From: Armatimonadia bacterium | GTDB lineage: Bacteria; Armatimonadota; Zipacnadia; Zipacnadales; JABUFB01 | Direction of reading: 5' to 3' | Length of the DNA stretch: 43,182 nucleotides | Assembly (NCBI GenBank): GCA_039679385.1 | Contig: JBDKVB010000134.1 | Location: 1 to 43,182 of the forward strand | Shown: one piece after another, positions 16,749-17,997 of the stretch | How the letters are laid out: each line of letters begins with the position of its first letter | How positions within the stretch are numbered: position 1 is the stretch's first letter | The notes under the pieces: model-generated | Databases searched by the model: none | Told to the model about the DNA's origin: nothing | The model's input: only the letters and a program-made list of their open reading frames with translations | Position numbers and translations under genes: made by a program

Positions 16749-16824
16749 GACGGTCCCTGACAGTCGAGGACCGGCCTTCCCTGGTTGGCCGAGGCGGCTC
16801 TGTGCAGCGCTGCGGGAGGTTGCG

Positions 16825-16974
16825 GTGAGACGTCATCTGTGGGTCGTGGCGGCAGTGGCAGCGGTGGCCCTGATGGCTGCCGGGCTTAGCCGGGGTGAGT
16901 GGAAGGTCGTGTTCCGCCACGCGACTGCCCTGTGCACCGCGTGCATCGGCCTCACGGAAGCTTCCTCTGAGTGA
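16825..16974 (+). CDS. 49-residue membrane micropeptide with CXXC motif (CD1871A-like)
   Basis: A GTG at 16825 follows GGGAGG with a five-base gap and opens 49 codons ending TGA. The peptide has a membrane helix (LWVVAAVAAVALMAAG), then the pattern GLSRGEWKVVFRHATALCTACIGLT with C37-T-A-C40. This matches the small CD1871A-type CXXC proteins of anaerobes, whose pattern is a helix, then YRGE, then NICLECIGIG. Those genes are commonly next to a polyferredoxin-like membrane protein, as here (48 bp to the next gene). The CXXC probably takes part in thiol redox or metal binding at the membrane. Its biochemical role is not known to me. It was found by reading the DNA, not by length. Confidence 0.75.
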   Translation: MRRHLWVVAAVAAVALMAAGLSRGEWKVVFRHATALCTACIGLTEASSE

Positions 16975-17022
16975 GCGGGCTCGATCTGACGGTGCAGTTC
17001 CCGCAGAGGCCGTCCTACGCGC

Positions 17023-17997
17023 ATGAGCGATCCACAGGTCGGCAACCAGGATCGAGGGTCCAATCCGCCTGGGGTATCACCGGGCGACGGATCGATTGCA
17101 CCGCCGGCACGACGTGGGCGTTCCCCAAGGCAGCTCCCCTGGGTATTGCGGAATCGGCTTGCAGTGCAGGTTGCCTCTGTGGTCTTCGCCAACTCCTTCT
17201 TTCTGCGGGGCTGGAAGGGTTTCTGCTACCCGGTACTGAACTGCTGGTCCTGCCCGTCGGCCAACTTCGCATGCCCGATTGGGGCGCTGCAGAACGCCTG
17301 CAGTGACGCTGGCTACACGGTTCCCGGTGCGACGAACCCGGTCCGGGCTGTGCTGGCTGCGCTGCCGGTGTACGCTCTGGGCACGCTGCTGCTATTCAGC
17401 AGCCTGTTTGGCCGGATGATGTGTGGGTGGCTGTGCCCCTTCGGATGGCTGCAGGAGCAGGTGGGGCGGCTGCGGAAGGCCAAGGCACCCTTACCGCAGT
17501 GGCTCAGTTACCCGCGCTACCTGATCCTGGTCGCGCTGGTCTTTGTCATCCCGTACTACACGCACACGCCGTGGTTCTCGAAGCTGTGCCCGCAGGGAGC
17601 GCTGGAAGGCGGCCTGCTACAGCCGCTCCTGCACCCTGAGTTGCGCCCAATGATGCGCGAGTGGTGGTGGCTCAAGCAGGTCATCCTTCTCGGCACGCTC
17701 GTGGCGATGCTTTTCTGGCGGCGTCCGTTCTGCAAGGTAGTCTGCCCGCTGGGTGCGATCTTTGCGCTCTTCCACCGGTTCAGCGCCTGGGATATCCGGT
17801 GGGAGCGGGCAAAGTGCGTGGATTGCTTGTGGTGTGTGGAGAACTGCCCGCAGGGGATTGATCCGCGTCGCGAGGTGAACAGCCACACTTGCGTGGATTG
17901 TCTGGAGTGCCGGAAATGCCCCTACGACGCGATCTACTCCGCGCCGAAGTGGGCGCCGCCACGCGAGGAGACAGAGCCGGAACTCAAGGGGAGTTAG
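17023..17997 (+). CDS. NapH/NosR-like polytopic membrane 4Fe-4S protein
   Basis: 324 residues; the ATG at 17023 has only a weak ribosome site, so the start is less certain. After a polar N-terminus come several membrane helices (about 110-130, 165-185 and 215-235). Cysteine motifs in order: C68-Y-P-V-L-N-C74-W-S-C77-P with C84-P in the first loop, MMCGWLCPFGWLQE, LCPQGALEGG, FCKVVCPLGAIFALF, then a ferredoxin-like tail with C265/C268/C271/C275-P and C290/C293/C296/C299-P. The tail should hold two 4Fe-4S clusters. In the second, the spacing between the third and fourth Cys is two residues rather than three. The protein likely moves electrons through the membrane, and the adjacent CXXC micropeptide suggests they act together. 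Donor and acceptor are unknown. Confidence 0.87.
   Translation: MSDPQVGNQDRGSNPPGVSPGDGSIAPPARRGRSPRQLPWVLRNRLAVQVASVVFANSFFLRGWKGFCYPVLNCWSCPSANFACPIGALQNACSDAGYTVPGATNPVRAVLAALPVYALGTLLLFSSLFGRMMCGWLCPFGWLQEQVGRLRKAKAPLPQWLSYPRYLILVALVFVIPYYTHTPWFSKLCPQGALEGGLLQPLLHPELRPMMREWWWLKQVILLGTLVAMLFWRRPFCKVVCPLGAIFALFHRFSAWDIRWERAKCVDCLWCVENCPQGIDPRREVNSHTCVDCLECRKCPYDAIYSAPKWAPPREETEPELKGS

Follow-up and report, generated by a model that had tools for sequence, protein, structure and literature searches.

Small membrane proteins that end in a CXXC motif are gathered in the NCBIfam family NF040920 (CD1871A), whose name states the CXXC alone, without a function, and whose model misses many members; the micropeptide described here shares with this family its size, its helix and its CXXC end. 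The gene that follows it encodes an iron-sulfur (Fe-S) protein resembling NapH/MauN and the flavinylated NapH-like systems in its Fer4_5 CX3CP motifs, its ferredoxin clusters and its polytopic membrane part. It differs from NapH/MauN in an extra N-terminal NCxxCP...CPxG module, and the pair differs from the NapH-like systems in its partner, which is here a micropeptide with a thiol or a putative selenol and there an FMN domain or a cytochrome. One report describes related NapH-like proteins as suppliers of electrons to extracytosolic FMN domains (PMC8238504). The DUF4266 proteins of that report are likewise small and exported, with two Cys at the C-terminus, and occur next to a membrane electron carrier, although their motif is CXC and they are secreted and accompanied by DsbD and flavinylated partners (PMC8238504). 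The role proposed below, electron transfer across the membrane to extracytoplasmic thioredoxin-like proteins, is that of DsbD/CcdA, but the present pair is without DsbD_TM homology and would work with Fe-S clusters and with a single-pass peptide as a separate part. TsoA (LULAXC, NF045695) represents small selenoproteins with selenocysteine (Sec) in a short Cys-containing motif and a gene in an operon, with a motif spacing unlike that of the micropeptide. NF040920 is absent from the 2026 table of 119 prokaryotic selenoprotein families (PMC13188914), a statement about the table itself, since the papers that it cites may mention the family. A search of the open-access literature found CD1871A named nowhere and no selenoprotein of this kind.

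The window, that is, the whole stretch of 43,182 nucleotides that was analysed, carries the two genes on one strand with the following features.

16814..16819, + strand: Shine-Dalgarno-like GGGAGG, read from the sequence, 5 nt 5' of the micropeptide GTG
16825..16974, + strand: CD1871A-family (NF040920) CXXC membrane micropeptide, 49 aa, GTG start, TGA stop
16837..16887, + strand: predicted transmembrane helix of the micropeptide, about residues 5-21 by hydrophobicity (helix 2-22 in the structure model)
16933..16944, + strand: CTAC motif (C37, C40), followed by I and an invariant Gly; the site of putative Sec in 42 relatives
17023..17997, + strand: polytopic 4Fe-4S membrane protein, 324 aa, with Fer4_5 and two ferredoxin-type Cys clusters
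17224..17274, + strand: N-terminal Cys module (C68, C74, C77, C84), outside the NapH homology according to the alignments
17422..17436, + strand: Fer4_5 CX3CP motif (C134, C138)
17815..17919, + strand: two ferredoxin-type Cys clusters (C265-C299)

The micropeptide reads MRRHLWVVAAVAAVALMAAGLSRGEWKVVFRHATALCTACIGLTEASSE, and TGC stands at both motif codons (16933-16935 for C37 and 16942-16944 for C40). The initial annotation had called it a CD1871A-like CXXC protein with a single helix and a CXXC tail, and this reading holds: the NF040920 model matches the 49-aa ORF with 36 bits against a cut-off of 32 (E 4.7e-9), and the translation shows the layout of one helix, a C-terminal CXXC and about 50 residues that is also the consensus of 137 relatives. 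The genome from which the window comes has a single NF040920 match. The gap of 48 bp to the polytopic Fe-S gene, which had likewise been pointed out, agrees with the coordinates of the micropeptide stop (16974) and the Fe-S ATG (17023).

For the Fe-S protein, Fer4_5 (PF12801) gives 62.1 bits against a gathering score of 22. The description "NapH-like" in the initial annotation stands loosely, because the NapH models do align, from residue 121 onward; the protein is not NapH itself, since NapH/MauN (TIGR02163), its best named relative, reaches 62.2 bits against a cut-off of 213. Within the 120 residues before this alignment lies the extra Cys module, GFCYPVLNCWSCPSANFACPIG, of which C74, C77 and C84 are invariant in both of our alignments (17 and 68 relatives). 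A locus of the window's own order (L035) has NCWASP and VTAP in its Fe-S ORF where NCWACP and FCxP are found elsewhere, so that two Cys of this module are lost, while its micropeptide still has CTAC. The Pfam scan of the window's Fe-S protein returned Fer4 families only, without DsbD_TM (PF02683) homology, and solved structures match only its ferredoxin part. A read-through fusion of a micropeptide with its Fe-S protein was modelled with AlphaFold at pLDDT 81 and pTM 0.78, the N-terminal Cys module being the weak part, and Foldseek found no solved fold at E<=0.001 for this fused model.

The two genes do occur together as a pair, in bacteria of several phyla. We collected Fe-S genes of this subfamily in three samples of 34, 80 and 108, or 221 after removal of one place common to two samples, and counted as a partner a small transmembrane protein with a [C/U]xx[C/U] end. 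Such a single-pass protein, ending in CxxC or its Sec form, accompanies 207 of the 221 genes (31/34, 78/80 and 99/108 in the respective samples), whereas an antisense control yielded a candidate of this kind in just 1 of 83 loci. The juxtaposition that the initial annotation had observed in one genome, a CXXC micropeptide beside a 4Fe-4S membrane protein, is thus confirmed by neighbour counts across genomes. Relatives that have retained the Fe-S gene but lost the CXXC, which would have spoken against the pair, are rare (1/32, 2/80 and 9/108).

The first sample covers 201 genomes of the window's phylum and comprises 34 Fe-S places, 33 fetched and that of the window itself; two loci at contig ends (L037 and L040) were dropped for the count of losses, leaving 32 testable. 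NF040920 matches occur in seven of the 201 genomes, each directly 5' of an Fe-S homologue. The idea of a rare pair, as this number alone would give, was rejected as an undercount when the upstream ORFs were read directly: a transmembrane peptide ending C-[TA]-[ASG]-C-[IV]-G-L precedes 22 of the 34 genes, and the model recovers only 7 of these 22 CXXC micropeptides. One locus (L022) has lost the motif through a broken 3' end, and nine genes (L042-L050) that seemed partnerless at first glance were found to have putative Sec partners; Sec forms in general score low with NF040920 or are read as truncated. The second sample consists of the best 80 of 586 confirmed relatives from 84,980 species genomes; the CXXC peptide lies directly upstream in 71, and in 7 it has a TGA in the motif, the exceptions being a peptide truncated after the helix (L075) and a locus without a micropeptide (L073). 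The third sample was drawn from 297 genomes belonging to the same phylum as a Desulfamplus MAG, where the 108 Fe-S matches score at least 201 bits and other NapH-like proteins at most 99, one partial match of 105 bits being set apart. Here 58 of 60 NF040920 matches lie directly upstream of a gene of the Fe-S subfamily and one directly downstream; because almost all of them directly precede the same subfamily in another phylum, the pairing goes beyond chance. When ORFs are read, 41 of the 50 remaining Fe-S genes also have a partner. No partner was seen for nine of the 108, including L170, which has just 201 bp of upstream sequence and was scored as a miss, and six of the nine are extra paralogues. 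Three genomes (G472, G270 and G425; loci L164, L167, L168, L191, L192 and L194) have three Fe-S copies each, some without a nearby micropeptide, and one micropeptide may serve several copies there.

In 41 of the 80 named loci the pair has a same-strand neighbour encoding a redoxin/AhpC-TSA (TlpA-like) protein with a CXXC (directly upstream in 32, downstream in 9), a linkage that is largely clostridial; in the third sample a WCxxC thioredoxin motif occurs in same-strand neighbours of 5 of 79 loci. No redoxin stands next to the pair in the window's own order, where, judging from the sequences, the upstream neighbours are sugar isomerase-like and Gfo/Idh-like genes and the downstream neighbours kinase-like and ECF sigma-like genes; L062 (Candidatus Zipacnadia, Armatimonadota) is a relative with the same neighbours as the window, and the phylum of the window was deduced from it. 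In the ORFs read for the five redoxin matches of the window's genome there is no evident TlpA, L229 being without a readable ORF and that of L228 probably in a wrong frame. In the Desulfamplus phylum, a gene of about 99 aa, MTH1187/YkoF-like by its sequence, precedes the pair in 14 loci (L140 and 13 others), and a gene likewise named XTP-pyrophosphatase-like follows it in 12 (L138 and 11 others).

The partner genes of relatives carry an in-frame TGA exactly at a motif Cys position in 42 cases, each a separate place (9 from the first sample, 7 from the second and 27 from the third, with one common to two samples; 7 of the 42 belong to the CPTU proteins described below). Most of these have the form UxxC; CxxU occurs in L048-L050, L111 and the CPTU group. 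Across 137 micropeptides, the first motif position is occupied by C in 108 cases and by U in 29, and the fourth by C in 136 and by U in a single one; the Gly after the motif never varies, and 110 of the proteins stop exactly four residues past the second Cys. Sec thus sits mostly at position 1, and the first position of the CXXC is the attacking Cys in CXXC oxidoreductases; because the replacement of Cys by Sec recurs, with at least six changes on a FastTree tree of 192 Fe-S proteins, a redox-active thiol is supported. In the CD1871A-type genes the frame runs on past the TGA with a conserved -xxCIGxG and then stops, and NF040920 was the sole NCBIfam match of the three Sec micropeptides that were tested.

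These genes also have a hairpin resembling a bacterial SECIS 3' of the TGA. Its score, which is limited to the published bSECIS geometry and was defined after the first ten Sec genes had been seen, is 10-20 (mean 16) in these ten, while 93 Cys genes give a mean of 7.3 (p=2.9e-7). Another 26 Sec genes, among them L200, which repeats the place of L091, were scored without any change to the method and average 15.8, compared with 8.8 for 45 Cys genes (p=5.7e-10). The bSECIS position, 16-37 nt past the UGA with a G in the apical loop, is found with some exceptions, the loop beginning 21 nt past the TGA in most Sec genes, and the stem pairs exchange G-C for A-T and C-G for T-A between genes. The 5' arm is coding and the 3' arm lies largely beyond the stop codon, so the hairpin is not explained by protein conservation. 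These data make the TGA-containing micropeptides putative selenoproteins with Sec in place of a motif Cys.

A second kind of partner was found in a divergent branch of the Fe-S proteins (L042-L047), each preceded by another small single-pass protein that ends ..CPT-TGA-x, with hairpin scores of 19-23; L225 of the third sample has a partner with the same ending. The one CPTU protein tested, that of L042, has no match in Pfam or NCBIfam. The partner of L048-L050 (..CYTU/CFTU) is encoded on the downstream side of the Fe-S gene, with selA directly after it in L048 and L050. Because different small proteins fill the same slot, the view that an outward thiol or selenol is a requirement of this Fe-S subfamily is strengthened, and the CPTU proteins can be taken as a putative second uncatalogued selenoprotein family in the slot of the micropeptide.

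On this basis we consider that the two genes probably encode a transmembrane redox relay running from the Fe-S protein through the thiol or selenol of the micropeptide to extracytoplasmic redoxins. Ferredoxin-type clusters would let the Fe-S protein pick up electrons in or at the cytoplasm, and its membrane Cys motifs would carry them across. The acceptor would be the disulfide or selenenyl-sulfide of the [C/U]xxC of the micropeptide, anchored by one helix with its C-terminus outward: the motif is predicted to face outside the cytoplasm, because the mean net charge of 137 relatives is +2.2 over the ten residues before the helix and -0.5 in the tail (positive-inside rule). The micropeptide might then reduce thioredoxin-fold proteins of the redoxin/TlpA type, so that iron-sulfur chemistry would do what DsbD/CcdA does by thiols alone. 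From this anatomy and the neighbouring genes we infer that electrons flow, which way they go and that the redoxin takes them up, and the relay interpretation of the initial annotation, electrons passed across the membrane to a micropeptide thiol, is as a whole partly supported.

If the TGA codons were ordinary stops or sequencing errors, the peptides would end before the motif; folding of the 60-nt stretches after the TGA showed no minimum-free-energy signal against shuffled sequences (z -1.3 to +1.6), the hairpins are weak or displaced in L057, L101, L204, L212 and L221, and few residues follow the TGA in the CYTU/CPTU genes. A control by codon kind, made without the CPTU group, counters this with 32 UC and 4 CU forms against zero TAA or TAG at the motif positions (a single "Cb" match was dismissed as antisense noise), and the CIGxG frame continuing past the TGA and the hairpins replicating in the second set with the score unchanged point the same way. 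Clostridium tepidiprofundi (L055), an isolate genome, has both the Sec form and selB, and its micropeptide scores 62.9 bits with NF040920 when the TGA is read as Cys. Over 73 chosen genomes, selB exceeds the cut-off in all 10 of the Sec genomes found first and in 28 of the 63 remaining ones (hypergeometric p=7.6e-4, confounded by kinship); in the third sample, compared for 80 of 91 genomes with the pair, it says little because it is nearly universal there (23 of 24 Sec and 53 of 56 Cys genomes, no contrast). We regard ordinary stops as most implausible.

The same anatomy would serve a flow in the reverse direction, in which the pair oxidises extracytoplasmic thiols as an anaerobic DsbB/VKOR counterpart and delivers electrons to a cytoplasmic acceptor or quinone. 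TlpA-like proteins can work in both directions, and PMC8238504 describes NapH as a quinone-linked family, but the AhpC-TSA/TlpA kind of redoxin partner is usually reductive, ferredoxin-type clusters would favour a low-potential donor and Sec is typical of reductive chemistry, so that we judge this unlikely. Rather improbable, in our estimation, is a structural role in which the Cys pair of the micropeptide, as a cluster subunit and not a thiol carrier, completes an Fe-S cluster with the NCxxCP...CP module. The three invariant Cys of that module look like an incomplete set and the micropeptide is almost always found with this Fe-S subfamily, yet Sec in 42 places, mostly at position 1, better fits a nucleophilic thiol, and the CPTU partners carry the motif quite differently placed and on another protein. 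A dedicated role, for instance in the handling of metals or selenium, instead of general thiol reduction, also appears quite doubtful to us: several genomes in the sample from the window's phylum do have selA or selB near the Fe-S gene, with putative selenoprotein genes in between in three genomes, but most loci have no such neighbours, and selA and selB often stand beside selenoprotein genes anyway.

If the relay from the Fe-S protein to the micropeptide is real, a micropeptide family whose name reflects nothing but its motif would gain a role. Many anaerobes must reduce extracytoplasmic thiols, and in 64 chosen genomes carrying the pair DsbD_TM/CcdA (PF02683, E<=1e-6) was present in 34 and not found in 30, including that of the window, and controls have it in 10 of 14; the gap left where CcdA/DsbD is missing would be closed if electrons reached a thiol or selenol along a ferredoxin-type route. 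The broader proposal has, in our opinion, a slightly better than even chance: that a widespread relay, with an Fe-S membrane protein reducing a micropeptide thiol or selenol, forms a third route beside DsbD/CcdA and the flavinylated NapH-like systems, and that its carriers, CD1871A and the unrelated-looking CPTU proteins in the same slot, are two uncatalogued selenoprotein families. Two small families would thereby be added whose genes seem cut short if TGA is taken for a stop codon, and the natural Sec/Cys pairs should make it possible to test the benefit of selenium in a minimal membrane redox peptide.

A further putative selenoprotein family was noticed near the Fe-S genes of L044 (+1390 from the start of the Fe-S match), L046 (+1575, +2498 and +3445) and L047 (+1322 and +2406). 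Four of its proteins were tested and none exceeded a cut-off in Pfam or NCBIfam. Their pattern is ..[FY]xYG-TGA-GG[TA]C.YSGxIP.., looser in two of those of L046, with the frame conserved past the TGA and SECIS-like hairpins scoring 15-20, and in L044 and L047 the genes lie between the Fe-S gene and selA. The window's genome itself has a selB match over the cut-off (325 bits, G000:C16:3175-4263) and may be able to make selenoproteins, though its own micropeptide uses Cys.
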